A stretch of DNA of 64,000 nucleotides from Mesodorylaimus sp. YZB2_4. Its lineage: Eukaryota; Nematoda; Enoplea; Dorylaimida; Dorylaimidae. The notes beneath the pieces are model-generated. The model searched no databases, was not told the origin of the DNA, and was given only the letters and a program-made list of their open reading frames with translations. This document shows, piece by piece, positions 21,288 through 47,540 of this stretch (position 1 is its first letter; every line of letters begins with the position of its first letter). Location of the stretch: NCBI GenBank assembly GCA_030248295.1, contig JASANH010001213.1, positions 372,001-436,000 on the forward strand, in the 5' to 3' direction. Made by a program: the position numbers and the translations under genes.

Positions 21288-22358
21288 ATGGATTCGATAG
21301 ACTCGGGCGCATCGATGGTTAGGGATGGAGAGGTTCAAGTGGCCCCGCCTATGACAGGTGTTTATAATCAACACTATGGTAACACGATACCGTCCGCTTA
21401 TCACCCTGTTCAAATTGGTCGTCGACAGATGGAACCGCAATTAGTGGCTCCGAATGGACCAGCGAGGGCCCCATTATCGCAACGTCGTTTATTGCAGCGT
21501 CAACACGCGCAAATGGCTCGACAACGGGAGGCGCAACAGAGGTGGTTGGCCGAGCAGCACCATCGTGCCTATCATCATCTTCAATCGCCAGTGGTCAACG
21601 GGAGTGAGAACATGGCGGCTGTTGCGGCAGCGGCCGCTTATCGGACTGCAGCAGCTGCGGCAGTGGCGGCCGCGGCGGCTACGGCGTCGGCTTTTTTGTA
21701 TCCGACAGTTTACGCTGCCATGCCTCCGCAGCCGTTGATTTTGGAACCGGCAGCAACGGCGACTGTGATCACTCAAAGGACGGTAGCTGGTCCGCCATTC
21801 CAGTTGGTACAACCTCAGGAAGTGGCCGTCGAACGTGTATTCGCTCCGGCGGCGGCGGCGGCTCAAGCCACATTGAACGGGGTAATATCGAGAAATGGTG
21901 GTGGGAGGACGGTGGTGTTTCGACCACAACCGTCCAGCGCGGCCGCCCCTTCGTTCGCCCCCTATTTATTGGTGGATAACGGGCACTATCATTATCATCG
22001 CCACCATCATCACCATTATCAGCACGCGTATCAGTGGCCCCCGGGCGCGATTTCGTTACGTCAGTTGGCCGAGTTTATGGACTTACCTCAAGGCGCTACG
22101 CGGGATATGATCGAGAAATGTTCGTTTATTCACGTTTATCAATTACCAAAAGAGGCAGTTCCGGTGGGCGAAGAAGACAAGTGCTCGGTTTGTCTATCCG
22201 AATTCGAGGCCAATGAGAATGTGCGCACGCTGCCCTGCTCGCATTTCTTTCACGTCGCATGCATCGATCGTTGGTTGGTCATCAACAAGAAATGTCCAGT
22301 TTGTCGTTTACATATCGATCGCGATTTGCAACAAACCACGAACATTGGAGTTCAATAG
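21288..22358 (+). CDS. RING-H2 E3 ubiquitin ligase, intronless
   Basis: 356 residues in one exon. The C-terminal ~60 residues form a RING-H2 finger, CSVC...LPCSHFFHVACIDRWL...CPVC, with the full C3-H2-C3 zinc-ligand set. The zinc site recruits ubiquitin-conjugating enzyme. The N-terminal two thirds is low complexity: Gln/Arg-rich, an alanine-rich tract around residues 110-140, a second Ala tract, and a His-rich block just before the RING. Layout and finger resemble the RNF38/RNF44 group, but orthology is not certain. The substrate is unknown. No transmembrane segment is apparent. The start is the first ATG of an open frame whose codon use continues to the RING. Confidence 0.85.
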   Translation: MDSIDSGASMVRDGEVQVAPPMTGVYNQHYGNTIPSAYHPVQIGRRQMEPQLVAPNGPARAPLSQRRLLQRQHAQMARQREAQQRWLAEQHHRAYHHLQSPVVNGSENMAAVAAAAAYRTAAAAAVAAAAATASAFLYPTVYAAMPPQPLILEPAATATVITQRTVAGPPFQLVQPQEVAVERVFAPAAAAAQATLNGVISRNGGGRTVVFRPQPSSAAAPSFAPYLLVDNGHYHYHRHHHHHYQHAYQWPPGAISLRQLAEFMDLPQGATRDMIEKCSFIHVYQLPKEAVPVGEEDKCSVCLSEFEANENVRTLPCSHFFHVACIDRWLVINKKCPVCRLHIDRDLQQTTNIGVQ

Positions 22359-22804: not shown

Positions 22805-23903
22805 ATGGCGCCAGTTGGTGTGCGCAAGTTTTGTCATAAGCAGCTACCAGCTGACAACTTGTGCGCCGTAACACGTTCGGGAGATTTCGATCGATCCGAC
22901 GACATGCGCTTTGGCAATTTTGCGTTGCGTAACCCTGGAGTGCGGCTGTGCATTTATGTTTCTTTTTCGCTGCGAAGATTTCGTAATTGGAAGAGAAATT
23001 TGTTCACGGTATTTGCTATAGCCATGGCTCAAACAATAAATGGGATTATGTAAGCCCAAAATTTTTTGATATATCTTATGAATTTGAACAGGCATCCTTT
23101 TTTAGGCATCCTAAACAGTACTCTATACACCTGGAGCCAGGATCCGCGTACTGCTCCTGATGTACCCCACGCCGCCAACGTTCTTTACACGCTCGTCGAA
23201 AAGTGCACAGAGGGCAGCGGTGTGGGGGATAAAGAGCCCCCTGTGGTTTTAAACGATGTTAGTATCGTAGATTTAACGGTAAGTGGGTGGATTTTGCGTG
23301 GCTAGGCAGTATGTTAGGGATAGATGTGGGCTTTTAGCTTTCTAAATGGGTTTGATGAAGAAATGTCCCGGCGAGCTTATCCGCGGCCAACGAAGTGTGT
23401 GGTTTTTACCAAATGTTTGCTGTCCATACGCTGTTTACATTTCGAAATTCACGTTCGCTTTTTAGAATCATGATTTGGCGTTGAGAGGCGAAGTCGGTCT
23501 CGAGTTCGTCTTTGATATCGGCGATGACGATTACGAGGTGCGCTGGCAAGCGACCATATATCCAGAAGGGCGCCTGATGATACACGTGCCTGAGTCAGCT
23601 CTGCCGGAAGGGTCGAAAGAAAGGTAACCGGATTTCCTTCCTTTCCGGCCATTACTGCTCGTTGTCACACAAGGATTATCGATAATCTTGAACCGTTGCA
23701 TTTTCAGTTTTGTTCGCTTACTGGAATTTGCCGAGGAGGACCTGCATTGTCGGGAAGTGTACCTGCAAATCAACAAGGATCGACCGGATCGGGCTCAACT
23801 GATTCGTGCATTCATGTACTTCGGCTTCTCTCTGCTACCGCCAGGTGTTTCAAATATTCGCTTGGATTCAGATTTGGTGACCATGTTGTACCGCATCGAG
23901 TAA
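22805..23903 (+). CDS. OAZ: Ornithine decarboxylase antizyme, requires +1 ribosomal frameshift
   Basis: Binds ornithine decarboxylase, sends it to the 26S proteasome without ubiquitin and restrains polyamine uptake. Exons are 22805-23049, 23106-23278, 23466-23623 and 23708-23903. Frame 0 runs 99 codons to TGA at 23158 (an in-frame second ATG with a good context is at 23024). Frame +1 resumes at GAT 23159, reading DVPHAANVLY as in vertebrate antizymes (DVPHP). The conserved C-terminal domain follows: YPEGRLMIHVPESALPEGSK, then LLEFAEEDLHCREVYL and DRPDRAQLIRAFMYFGF. The shifted product is about 256 residues. Expression should rise with polyamines through the frameshift. The frame-0 start is the least certain part; the exon 1 to 2 junction (AT|G) is supported by phase. 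Confidence 0.93.
23152..23160 (+). promoter_or_regulatory. Antizyme programmed +1 frameshift site (TGC TCC TGA)
   Basis: Frame 0 ends TAC TGC TCC TGA TGT. TGC-TCC-TGA is the classical antizyme shift site: the ribosome pauses at the stop, slips +1 on TCC and continues with GAT. No zero-frame continuation or splicing is needed to join the two open frames. Confidence 0.93.
23165..23235 (+). promoter_or_regulatory. Predicted 3' pseudoknot stimulating the antizyme frameshift
   Basis: Starting 4 nt after the TGA, CCCCACGCCGC (23165-23175) pairs with GCGGTGTGGGG (23217-23227): 11 bp with a single G-U. TCTTTA in the loop (23182-23187) pairs with TAAAGA (23230-23235) just past the stem, which would make an H-type pseudoknot. 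Pairing was seen by eye; no folding energy was computed. Confidence 0.7.
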
Positions 23904-26882: not shown

Positions 26883-28114
26883 GCCGCCAGGCTGCACACT
26901 GTAAAGGCAAGGTCCACTGCACTGCATCAGGTGGCGTAAATCTTGTGATCTGCATGTGCAGGTAGCGCAGTCGAGGGTGAAGGAATGTGAAGGATTGTGC
27001 ACGAAATAGCCGCCATCGCACTATCCATCATCTCGCAGTCCTAGCATTTTTAATATTCTGCCAGGAGATTTTTTGTAATCTGGTAATTTTTGGTCCGATT
27101 GGCATTGCCAGTCTGAATTGAATGACCTTCACGCACCCCTTCATCGCTTGGATGCCCGAGTCAGCTGCACCTTCAAGCAGTTGAGTTATTACAGGGAAAA
27201 GTGCGAACTGGTGGGTGCTGTTCATCTGTCATGTCAAATCCAGGTCGGCGTGTTGAACGGATGCCAAAAGAGTCTAAAAACAACACTTGGCTGCGTCTGT
27301 CTGAAACTGGTCAAATGTTTGGAATTTGGACGGGGAACAGCGGGGAGGCCTAAGCTAGTGAAAGGGGGCGCGAGTGGGGATCGTATTATGGCAGTGCATA
27401 CCAGGTCAAAAAGGCAGCATCACTTTGGCCGAGATAAGGGCATTGTGCAGTGAAGTGGGTCTACGTCACCAAGTGGCGTAACATGGTTTGTTCGCTTGGC
27501 CAGCTGTGGGTCATCACTTTAGTGTGACTAGGATGCGCGTGGTCGGGGTGTCAAAGGGGGAGACTTATCACGCACTAGGAATGTATTGGTTACGCATGCC
27601 TGGTTCTAAGCCTCGTATGAAAAAGGCATCAAACACTTTTGTATAAAAAGTTGTTGTGACGAGGGAAGATGTGCTCTGGTCGAAATTGCTTTTCACTGGG
27701 CCAATGTTACCTACATTTGCGAGGATGTATTCTCACTTTCTGGCACTTTCAAAAAGTTCCCTTTCCTCGAAATGTCTTGTTCGGTGCTGGTGGTAGGAGG
27801 CTTAGGTTACAAGGTCGCGGTATGGTTGCGCGTCGCGGTTGATGGCCCCCATCGGCGTGCCGTGCATGGCCATTGGTATTTACGCGGATGGCGGTAAGAG
27901 GCTAGTGCACTGGCCCAAGTCACGGGTGAACGTGTTTTACACGTCCCAGGGCGCGCCTCTCAATGTATCACTTTCCATATTCGACGTTTTTGAATCCCTT
28001 TTTGGTTTTAGTCTCTCTTTCTCATTGACACCGAACAAGGATTGGGTGAAGTTTTTACTCGTTTCGTATTATTTAATTCGACAAGTCTGGGCGGTGAAAG
28101 GTGGTCGTGCCGTC
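26883..28114. other. Upstream region of the collagen gene
   Basis: 26950-27010 carries a reversed TCGAGGGTGAAGG block related to the SINE-A 3' part. No gene was recognised. The collagen reading frame is open upstream of its ATG to 27839, but the extra sequence has no collagen character and I take it as non-coding. The promoter is presumably here. Confidence 0.4.
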
Positions 28115-31100
28115 ATGGAACTGGACGAACTGAGGGAGAAGGCCTACAAAGTAGTGGCCTTCTCGTCCATAGGATTTAGCATGATTGCAGTCTTATCAGT
28201 TAGCATTACCCTCCCCATGGTCTATCACTACATCGAACGGATACAGTTGCAAATGGACGCCGATGTCGGCTTTTGCAGAGTGAGTGGGGCCAGTGTGCTC
28301 TTTTATTGTCGTGCAACCTGGAGGAGGCCGACACAAACCCCTTCCGGGTGGGATTCGAACCCTTTCCTGCTACCAGCGTGACTCCTCTGGTGCCTACTTC
28401 AACGGTACTTGTAGGAATCAGCAGCAGACATTTGGCACGGAGTGACGGAGCTTCAGACATTGAAACAAATGGAAACCAATCGAACGGTCAGGCAAGTTTA
28501 TCCTTCTCAGCCTGCCCCCGATCAGGGGTATGTCGGGCCTGCTACACAAGCACCGGGACAACAGTGCCAGCCGTGCTGTTCCCCAGGATCGCCCGGGCCA
28601 CCTGGAATACCTGGAAAGAACGGAGATAATGTAAGTGGCTGAGCGGGTACACAGGTCGGACTGGGAGTGTTTGGGTTGAACACTGCAAATCTGTGAGCCA
28701 GTCAGCGTAATAGGCGGAGTACCTGCCCTACATTGGAGAAGATACCATGGGCAACCCTCCAGGCAGGCCTCCTAGTCGTAGAAGCCAGAGTCATCAACCC
28801 AACGGGTTCTGCCTCGCCTGGAGGAGCGTATCGAGCGGCCATCGAAGGCAACTGATAGGCGGCGGCCAGTTAAGGCAACCACATACACGACCTTCTCCAC
28901 AGGCCAAACGCACCCACAGTACTACATTCCTCCTTCCGTTAGGGAAGCGATGCCCCATGAGCCAATGAGCTGGTCAGGAAAGCCCAGAGGCCTCATGGCC
29001 TGGTGGGTTAGGCGTCTGCCTCTCACGCCAGGTGCGCAGTTACGGGCGAGTGTTCGACTCGCGGGCCGGTAAATCATTTCGTGTGAAATGTGTCCTTTAA
29101 CCCTCGAGTGCGCATAAGCGTTTGGTGATGTGGTAAGACATGAACATGTACATGAACAGAGGTATCGTCGGTGTGTTCCTAACATAGGAAATGAGGTTGG
29201 AGGTTGAAGCTGACTGATTATCACGTCATCACGTGATGGTCCAGGATGCCCTTGTGCTGAGGATTTGCTGATACTCGCATGATAAATCAGGGCACAGTGC
29301 ACTGCGCTTGTCTGCGTTCCTCCAACACGGCTGCATCAAATCTGCCTTGTTGTATCTTTATGCTTAAGTTTGTGTAAGAAACAAGTGTGCTAGGCGTGTT
29401 TGCCCAATGGGGAAGGATGTGTATTTGGTTGCCCCGACTGGCCGCCTTATGGGACCACTGTATTGGCTTGCCTTCGTTGGCCGCTCGATAAGCTCCTGCA
29501 GGTGAGGCAGAAACGCTTCGGGTTGTGTCTCAGGCTCCTACGACTAGGTGGGCTGCCTGGAGTGTTTTTGAGCCCATCCACTCCCCGTGGTACCTGCTCC
29601 AACGTACGGCCGTTCAGCCTGTTGCACAAGTAAGTGGAGGGGCTTTGTGGAACAGGAGACGGTTATGCGCAATACCCATATCATCGTGAGAGATGCGGGG
29701 AATGGCTCACATAGCCAGTTCAGGGAGAAAACACCAGAATTCTGTCGAACTCCTTTTGTTCACTGCGTCTAACGTGCTCAAGAATCGGCCAACGAGTAGG
29801 TTGCAAATCAATAAGCACTACCAAAGGCCCCATGCATGCGCTCTGGAGCAGTCTTGTGTGAAGGTCGTGATGACGTCATTTATTGTTTTAGGGCAAACCA
29901 GGAGTACCAGGCGTGCCAGGAATGCCAGGTAAGAATTTCGATCTTCCTTGTGCTTCATACATTAAACATGTTCCTCCACTGTGGCATGGCTATACAGTAC
30001 ATACACATGGACTACTGTGTGGGTGTGGAACCACAAGTTGAAAATTGGCATGTTGACAAGTTAGATAAGACGATGGGGAAACCTTGCTTTACTTTGCAGG
30101 CATGGCACCGATGAGGCCATGCGTGGAGGTATGGTGTTTGAATTTTCAATAAAAGTGCAAGTAAAACTTATTGCCTTTTGATTTTAGGGAACACCAGCGC
30201 CGTGTAAGGTATGTTGCGGGCTACATTAGATCTCGGACCACCCATTTCAGCAGGTTTTCATCCAAGGAAACATTCTTTCTTTAGCCATGCCCTGCCGGGC
30301 CACCTGGTCCTGATGGTCTTGCTGGACCCGAAGGCGATGCAGGACCCCCTGGCCCGCCTGGAAAGAATGGAGAGAACGGAAGGAATGGTACGCATCATTT
30401 CCGAGTGTATTCTCGTCTTAGCTAACTGAACTTGAGTTGTAGGCGACCCCGGACCTCGCGGACCACCAGGTACGCGCACAGGCTCTGACAGTCGTGTCCC
30501 ACAATAGGCTAAAGCAAAAGCATTTTAGGTCTGTCTGGAGAGCCTGGACGTGACGGCTCAGTCGGTGATCCTGGTCTACCTGCTCAAGCGTCCCCCTTGG
30601 TACGCGTCTTGACCCATTTTTATTGCAAACTTACAACGTCCTATCTTCTTAGATCCCGGGCGACCCTGGTGATGAAGGCGATCCTGGACCTGCTGGTGAG
30701 AGTGCTTTTCGGTCAGACTGTTTTGAAGACATAAATTACGACGGCAAGAAATTCTGAGCCTTGATCACCGGAATATCCGCCCACCTGACCTGCGCCACTT
30801 TACAGTCACACACTTTACACTTTACACCAGTCATCTAGACACCGCGCAATGTCTAGATGACTGCAACGTCAGACTTTACATGTCCAAAACTTAGGACTGC
30901 CACAGCGCCGTGATGCAAGGCAAGGAATAAGATATGCTATCTAATGCTATCTTTGAATGAATATGAATATGCTATCTATATGCTCTTTTTGAAATGCTTA
31001 CGCTTCTGCAATAGGTTGTCACTACATTAAAATCAACATATGCTATCTAAGATTTAGGACATACGAATATCTTGAGTGACTGTAGTGTGGCCCCTCTTTC

Positions 31101-46066: not shown

Positions 46067-46921
46067 CTACTTCCTCTTATCGCCTTTTTTCCCGTCAGCT
46101 GCACTCTGCTTGCCATGCCCGCCCTTCTCCAACAAGTCCCTGGCCACGTTGCTGATGTGCTTGAACCTGTCAGGCCCGAGGTGTATGCCCCCGTACCAGC
46201 GGGTCACCACGATCAGCACATTCCTAGCGTCCATCATCTCGAGCAGGTGCATGAGCCTGGACCCCGCCTGGTGCTCCCCGTCGTCATCGCAGTCCTGAAT
46301 GCACGTCCGACCTCCATCGTAAATCCTGAACGCGTAGATGTTGTGCGTTGCCCGAGCCACTTTCGGATTAGTCTTTAGATGGGCCAGCACATTCCGCACG
46401 TCATCTTTGGTTAAAACGGGGGCCACGTGAGCTTGAAACGTGCTTTTGCGATCAGTCAACGGGTCCCCCGATTGGATCGAGTTCGGATCGACTTGGCAGG
46501 CGGGCACACTGGCATGTATGTGCTCAGAGGAATCCACCTCGTCGTACGATGCCACCTCGCCCCCACCTTCCCCCATGTCATTCCTATCCAAGAACTGCCT
46601 AGCTGCTTCGAACCAGTGAAAGAGAATCGGCTGGCCAAGATTTTCCACATAAATCTCTTGCAATCGTTCGGACAAAGCATTCTTGGCTTTTCCATCCAAA
46701 TATGGCGAGCTGATTTCGAAAGTGGGAGGTGCTGTGGTCGGATAGCCGGGAGGCAACTTGACGAACAGTTTCAGTTCGATACTATTCGACTCATTACGTA
46801 TGGTCATGGAATAAAATTGGGCATCGTCTGAACTCGAGTCTTCTCTGATCAAATCATCACCATAAATCGATGACAAGGCTTCGATTTCATCAGCTTGCAG
46901 AGCCGCATCAGTCGCTTCCAT
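46067..46921 (-). CDS. IMPACT: IMPACT homologue (RWD domain, GCN1-binding inhibitor of GCN2 signalling)
   Basis: 284 residues in one exon. The N-terminal RWD domain (about 8-115) carries LQADEIEALSSIYGDDL and the RWD hallmark PPGYPTTAPP. The C-terminal Impact/UPF0029 domain (about 150-262) carries KSTFQAHVAPVL, DDDGEHQAGSRLMHLLEMM and VVTRWYGGIHLGPDRFKHI. IMPACT and yeast Yih1 bind GCN1 and dampen GCN2 activation when amino acids run short; this is inferred for the present protein. The tail is Lys-rich. I chose the ATG at 46921 because homology begins there; the frame is open further upstream, but TCTATGTAG, an acceptor-like site, lies 16 nt before this ATG. Confidence 0.93.
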   Translation of the reverse strand: MEATDAALQADEIEALSSIYGDDLIREDSSSDDAQFYSMTIRNESNSIELKLFVKLPPGYPTTAPPTFEISSPYLDGKAKNALSERLQEIYVENLGQPILFHWFEAARQFLDRNDMGEGGGEVASYDEVDSSEHIHASVPACQVDPNSIQSGDPLTDRKSTFQAHVAPVLTKDDVRNVLAHLKTNPKVARATHNIYAFRIYDGGRTCIQDCDDDGEHQAGSRLMHLLEMMDARNVLIVVTRWYGGIHLGPDRFKHISNVARDLLEKGGHGKQSAADGKKGDKRK

Positions 46922-47540
46922 ACGTCCTAGCCGACCACTACATAGAAATATATTTTCACATAAAAATTCAACTGAATATCGATTAAAGTAGTCACAGCCG
47001 AGAAAAGGCCTCCAGCAACCAATAGACACACACAAACCGTAATCACATTTTACTGTTTCCATCACGTAATCGACTCATCAAATTGTCCCAAGCTTTCTTC
47101 ACCTGAAAAGACGGATTATGCAGTTCGTGAAAGAATAAAGAGATCGACCAGATTCCGGTCATACGGCCAGACGCCACACAGCCAAAAACTGGACAGTGCT
47201 GTACTGAATAATAACGCAAAACGTTTATTATTCAACAACAGCCAGTAATATCATAACGGACCATTTTCCAAGTAGTGCATACTTACATAGTCTAGGTCAC
47301 ACGTTTTCAGGGATTCCGCTAAGTATACTCTGTGCTATTTTAACCTAATTTTCAGTCAAGTCACGCTAATCTTGGCTCTTGCGTATTTTACAGTAAAATA
47401 AGTAATTTCGAATAAGTTTACATGTTCCAATGCGGAAGAAGCTACATCCTTGATGACCAAACATAAGAAATCCCCAGCGCATATTAGAAAGATAAAATAA
47501 CTTATATCCGCCATTGGAATGTCTGATCTGGTCCCGTCTT
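46922..47540. other. 5' flank of IMPACT
   Basis: AT-rich, with no gene recognised. Probably contains the IMPACT promoter or leader. Confidence 0.4.

Follow-up and report, generated by a model that had tools for sequence, protein, structure and literature searches.

Antizyme acts as a brake on polyamine production, and its message is read by way of a one-base slip. A locus in a 64,000-nt stretch of DNA from Mesodorylaimus sp. YZB2_4 (referred to here as the window) raised the question of whether it is a working gene of this kind, where its first open reading frame (ORF1) begins, and whether its second (ORF2) could be reached without the slip. The evidence set out below makes it very probable that this is a working nematode antizyme gene that is read by +1 frameshifting and regulated by polyamines.

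Judged by its sequence, the interval from 22805 to 23903 is an ornithine decarboxylase (ODC) antizyme gene with four exons; coordinates are those of the window unless a contig is named, and all features of the gene lie on the plus strand. The coding region runs from 23024 to 23903 (its start moves to 22805 should translation begin at the first ATG) and is interrupted by introns of 56, 187, and 84 nt. Read without splicing, frame 0 from 22805 runs for 82 codons and then meets an in-frame TAA at 23051. Removal of intron 1 (23050 to 23105; 56 nt, phase 2, GTAAGC..TTTTTTAG) leaves a frame 0 of 99 codons that ends in TGC TCC TGA, with the TGA at 23158 to 23160, and both the overall coordinates and the 23049/23106 junction given in the preliminary description hold. 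Counted from the likely ORF1 start, exon 1 spans 23024 to 23049. Exon 2 (23106 to 23278) carries the end of ORF1, the TCC TGA shift site (23155 to 23160), a candidate pseudoknot, and the start of ORF2. The +1 frame, which begins DVPHAANVLYTL..., continues to 23278 and then through exon 3 (23466 to 23623) and exon 4 (23708 to 23903), which encode the first and second parts of the antizyme domain, respectively, and it ends in TAA. The passage from TGC TCC TGA in frame 0 to DVPHAAN in the +1 frame and on into the ODC_AZ domain is therefore present as originally claimed, and the product of frameshifting would carry the junction peptide CS-DVPHAAN.

We compared the ORF2 product with known families and structures by using a hand-spliced 157-amino-acid version in which one junction residue is R for S; the same query served for the genome search described below. 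It matched the Pfam family ODC_AZ (PF02100) at 1e-16 with 61.3 bits (cut-off, 24.2 bits) and solved mammalian antizyme 1 at 2.3e-17. The domain is shared with mammalian antizyme 1 (OAZ1; PDB 4zgz, 4zgy, 5bwa, and 1zo0) over 93 to 94 query residues, with E values of 2e-17 to 1e-16. It lies in the +1-frame ORF2, downstream of a short ORF1 that ends in UCC-UGA.

A search of the 145-Mb, 1,067-contig assembly that contains the window found one further ODC_AZ locus, a paralogue (L007) on contig C179, in which the domain likewise sits in a +1-frame ORF2 behind a short ORF1 ending in UCC-UGA. The two genes have three introns at the same positions (intron 1 of the paralogue is 54 nt long), an identical TCC TGA site, and the same ORF1 end, KQYSIHLEPG..YCS. 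Because the paralogue shares the intron positions, the shift site, and the ORF1 end, the antizyme organization of the window gene is more than chance. Over the 48 nt from AAACAG through the TGA, the genes differ at five positions. Scored as synonymous or nonsynonymous, these differences divide 3 to 2 in frame 0, 2 to 3 in the +1 frame, and 0 to 5 in the third frame, a thin hint, from five substitutions only, of synonymous constraint favoring frame 0 before the TGA.

The presence of two copies in the genome raises the possibility that the window gene is a pseudogene or a decayed duplicate of the gene on C179. This is almost certainly not so, given that its ORF2 has no stop or frame damage and its splice sites are intact. 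In the rest of ORF2, away from the stem-overlapping codons considered below, only 39 of 78 same-residue degenerate codons are identical between the two genes, and the genes have therefore diverged silently while the antizyme domain was kept. Codon usage in ORF2 is also coding-like, its score being reached by 1.1% of 2,000 random windows for the window gene and by 0.3% for the paralogue. It is unlikely that the second copy stems from a mixed assembly, since RRP40 gave a single match and C179 has cuticle collagens; an IMPACT-like protein, examined for the same reason, gave one strong and 10 weak matches in the genome. The assembly as a whole is that of a nematode, with 133 matches to the cuticle-collagen N-domain (PF01484), a family that marks nematodes, and its COX1 can be read without interruption under the invertebrate mitochondrial code. 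The NemF primer was set aside as a marker, since its table lists matches in other metazoans as well.

Several side observations arose from these searches. One of the 133 collagen matches lies in the window at 28160 to 28285 (plus strand), overlapping a 180-amino-acid ORF at 27839 to 28381. COX1-like sequence occurs on several contigs (C73, 251445 to 254668; C273; C741; C47; and others), in some cases with in-frame TAA or TAG codons, and these are nuclear mitochondrial copies or misassembly. The IMPACT-like protein is encoded at 46067 to 47065 (minus strand); its C-terminal part, from about residue 231 to 320, has nine weak matches elsewhere in the genome (28 to 36% identity), several of which fall within long open frames. 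Another weak match extends over residues 57 to 156. A search of viral contigs for relatives gave 10 pattern matches, none of which was a relative.

Where does ORF1 begin? The preliminary description had drawn attention to an unusually long frame 0 of 99 codons and to a second in-frame ATG at 23024. That ATG is present, in the context GCCATGG, and its position matches the start of the paralogue; the unusual length of ORF1 is probably wrong. In the paralogue, ORF1 is 27 codons long and its ATG is preceded, at a distance of three codons, by an in-frame stop, and the stretch from 22805 to 23023, which contains in-frame ATGs at 22805 and 22904, has random-like codon usage, its score being reached by 42% of 2,000 random 219-nt windows. 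For these two reasons, the 99-codon frame is probably not ORF1, and a start at 23024, giving 26 codons, appears more likely than one at 22805. The longer frame would then probably have arisen by chance, from a 5' region that happens to be open and is more likely untranslated than coding. The two ORF1s (paralogue, MMDSTTNDMTLSKQYSIHLEPGPTYCS; window, MAQTINGIMHPKQYSIHLEPGSAYCS) also score low, at levels reached by 23% (window, 78 nt) and 39% (paralogue, 81 nt) of random windows; they fail to stand out because they are too short. An apparent homology of the two genes in their 5' regions (TTGTCATAAGCAG, at 22831 in the window and 3046 in L007) was rejected, as 6 of 200 shuffles scored equally high. 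A search for the SL1 spliced leader gave no match, but its control likewise matched nowhere. Immediately upstream on the same strand, a 356-amino-acid RING-H2 protein is encoded in a single open frame at 21288 to 22358, ending 665 nt before the ATG at 23024.

Frameshift sites of this kind may be accompanied by a downstream structure, and just 3' of the shift site the sequence can be folded into a long-stem H-type pseudoknot that is conserved between the two genes and is a strong candidate for such a signal. It begins 4 nt past the UGA. The predicted stem 1 pairs CCCCACGCCGC (23165 to 23175) with GCGGTGTGGGG (23217 to 23227) in 11 bp, including one G-U pair. Stem 2, recognized by inspection, would pair CACAGAGGGC (23206 to 23215) with GCCCCCTGTG (23236 to 23245) in 9 bp plus one A.C mismatch. 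All four stem arms are identical in the window gene and the paralogue, as is the single A between the 5' arm of stem 2 and the 3' arm of stem 1, whereas the loops differ in both sequence and length (30 versus 24 nt for loop 1 and 8 versus 11 nt for loop 3). Since the arms are identical, there are zero compensatory changes, and the support comes from conservation, not covariation.

The best combined pseudoknot score was reached by none of 500 synonymous recodings of the window gene and by 1 of 500 of the paralogue, and the score of stem 1 alone was reached by none of 500 in either gene. Against dinucleotide shuffles, the pseudoknot score was reached in 1 of 500 cases (window) and 0 of 500 (paralogue). 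The automatic scan behind these scores disallowed mismatches and for that reason picked a stem 2 different from the one described here, support for which rests on inspection together with conservation between the genes. Codons overlapping the stems are identical in 14 of 14 cases, and in 11 of 11 fourfold-degenerate cases, compared with the rest of ORF2 (Fisher p of about 2e-4, a value that is only indicative because the codons were hand-picked as overlapping the stem arms and one cell is off by one, 38 for 39). Around the shift site, a putative stimulatory signal is thus present as sequence and predicted structure. Rfam has a family for the antizyme frameshift element, and no covariance-model match to it was found at either locus. 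At E values up to 1, no Rfam family matched between 22700 and 24000, the only match near the paralogue was mir-205 (21.9 bits; cut-off, 55), which overlies stem 1, and scanning the entire window with gathering thresholds gave nothing useful. The pseudoknot presumably differs in sequence from the mammalian one. Together, homology, a paralogue of the same organization, and the conserved 3' pseudoknot bear out the original reading of the locus as an antizyme gene whose UCC-UGA +1 site is intact.

The window copy also has, on paper, two potential routes around the frameshift that are new here, a proximal acceptor and an AUG in the +1 frame. Both are absent from the paralogue, and both are within chance expectation. 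The first is an AG at 23090 to 23091, 14 nt upstream of the acceptor of intron 1. The preliminary description had named a splice form joining the two frames without the TGA as the finding that would speak against it, and the sequence permits just such a form: if intron 1 were cut at this AG, in some tissue at least, exon 2 would be longer by 14 nt, ORF1 would be fused to ORF2 in one continuous frame (MAQTINGIMHPFLGILNSTLYTWSQDPRTAPDVPHAAN...), and antizyme would be made with neither a frameshift nor polyamine sensing at this stage. The product would carry the peptide WSQDPRTAPDVPH, as would one started at the AUG at 23040. It is plausible that automatic annotation would truncate or mis-splice the window gene, and a seamless gene model through the 23090-23091 acceptor is another likely mistake.

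We consider it improbable that this acceptor is used. Its geometry, two AGs within 18 nt with the upstream one off consensus, fits the paired 3' splice sites reported in PMC4889670 and PMC12709185, which, citing Ragle 2015, describe C. elegans acceptors paired within 18 nt as having a poor upstream site used mainly in the germ line. According to PMC12709185, however, the spacing in 88.1% of the C. elegans pairs is a multiple of 3; a spacing of 14 is not. The 9-nt sequence AGGCATCCT occurs twice, 14 nt apart, within 23090 to 23112, at both acceptors of intron 1 (23090 and 23104), which suggests a local duplication. Moreover, both introns 1 contain TATGAAT and, 6 nt beyond it, an AG; this AG is the acceptor in the paralogue and the proximal AG in the window gene. 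Against these points, the proximal site, GAACAG, lacks the U at -5 that is found in 19 of 19 other acceptors (14 from two ODC genes and 5 from the antizymes, with window intron 1 left out; the ODC intron boundaries were placed by eye, which favors U-rich choices). The paired arrangement is also common, because 6 of the 19 acceptors have an AG 4 to 18 nt upstream, and, given an AG at 14 nt, the frame is open in 53% of 5,000 simulated cases. Finally, intron 1 of the paralogue has no such AG, and the +1 frame of the paralogue has a TAA at 3312 of L007, at the start of exon 2. The broader proposal, in which one of two nematode antizyme genes switches, possibly in the germ line, from frameshift-dependent synthesis that senses polyamines to constitutive synthesis by a choice between acceptors with a spacing of 14 nt, so that splicing overrides frameshifting, is highly improbable. 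No title describing a splicing bypass of antizyme frameshifting was among the literature matches listed.

The second route would require ribosomes to pass the AUG at 23024 by leaky scanning and to start at the AUG at 23040 to 23042, whose frame on the canonical mRNA stays open across ORF2, a run of 178 codons up to the stop at 23901 to 23903. The result would be a 178-amino-acid antizyme made without a frameshift. The context of the upstream AUG (GCC AUG G) and the U at -3 of the downstream one argue against it; a +1 AUG is present by chance in 36% of 5,000 synonymous recodings of ORF1, and the paralogue has none. We regard this as an improbable means of expression, and +1 frameshifting as the preferred reading.

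In the frameshifting model, ribosomes would translate the short ORF1, most likely from the AUG at 23024, and pause at UCC-UGA with UGA in the A site, where a fraction would shift +1 to yield full antizyme, helped by the sequence at the end of ORF1 and by the pseudoknot 4 nt past the UGA. A rise in polyamines would increase shifting and hence antizyme, which would lower ODC and uptake. Antizymes bind ODC and direct it to the proteasome; we infer the frameshifting itself, its polyamine drive, and the binding of ODC by the product from the behavior of the family. The genome has two ODC genes (on C142 and C185) with the conserved motifs PYYAVKCNN and WGPTCDS, and because both are present, the usual antizyme circuit would be possible. 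Two further matches to the ODC/Arg-decarboxylase N-domain (C108, 43569 to 44246, and C431, 2424 to 3137) lie in open frames of 1,103 and 955 codons, respectively, whereas the ODC genes are rich in introns; these matches may be bacterial sequence or have another function.

According to a review (PMC5009743), mammalian antizyme 1 also has a UCC-UGA +1 site with a pseudoknot just 3' of it. ORF1 of the window gene, if it starts at 23024, is much shorter than that of OAZ1. The 3' pseudoknots of oyster and aphid antizymes keep their stems and vary in their loops, as in the window-paralogue pair, a likeness drawn from a figure legend and from citations of Ivanov 2004 in the same review. The C. elegans antizyme is known and is listed there among frameshift-expressed antizymes. 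Ahead of the stop, codons -8 to -5 read E P G S in the window gene and E P G P in the paralogue; for C. elegans, the review table prints P G D V G, which puts five letters into four columns. The review gives one antizyme per species for C. elegans, compared with two loci here, and lower eukaryotes have single antizyme genes according to the OAF paper (PMC2375905). On the strength of these statements, two antizyme genes in a nematode are mildly unusual, and a weak literature search returned no paper on nematode antizyme duplicates among the matches listed.

For work that traces the evolution of frameshift signals, this locus is useful as a well-supported antizyme from a nematode that has both a strong candidate pseudoknot and another gene copy. 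It also carries a warning, in that annotation through the wrong acceptor or from the AUG at 23040 would give a seamless ORF that hides the frameshift. Should the bypass isoform exist, it would show splicing taking the place of recoding in nature.
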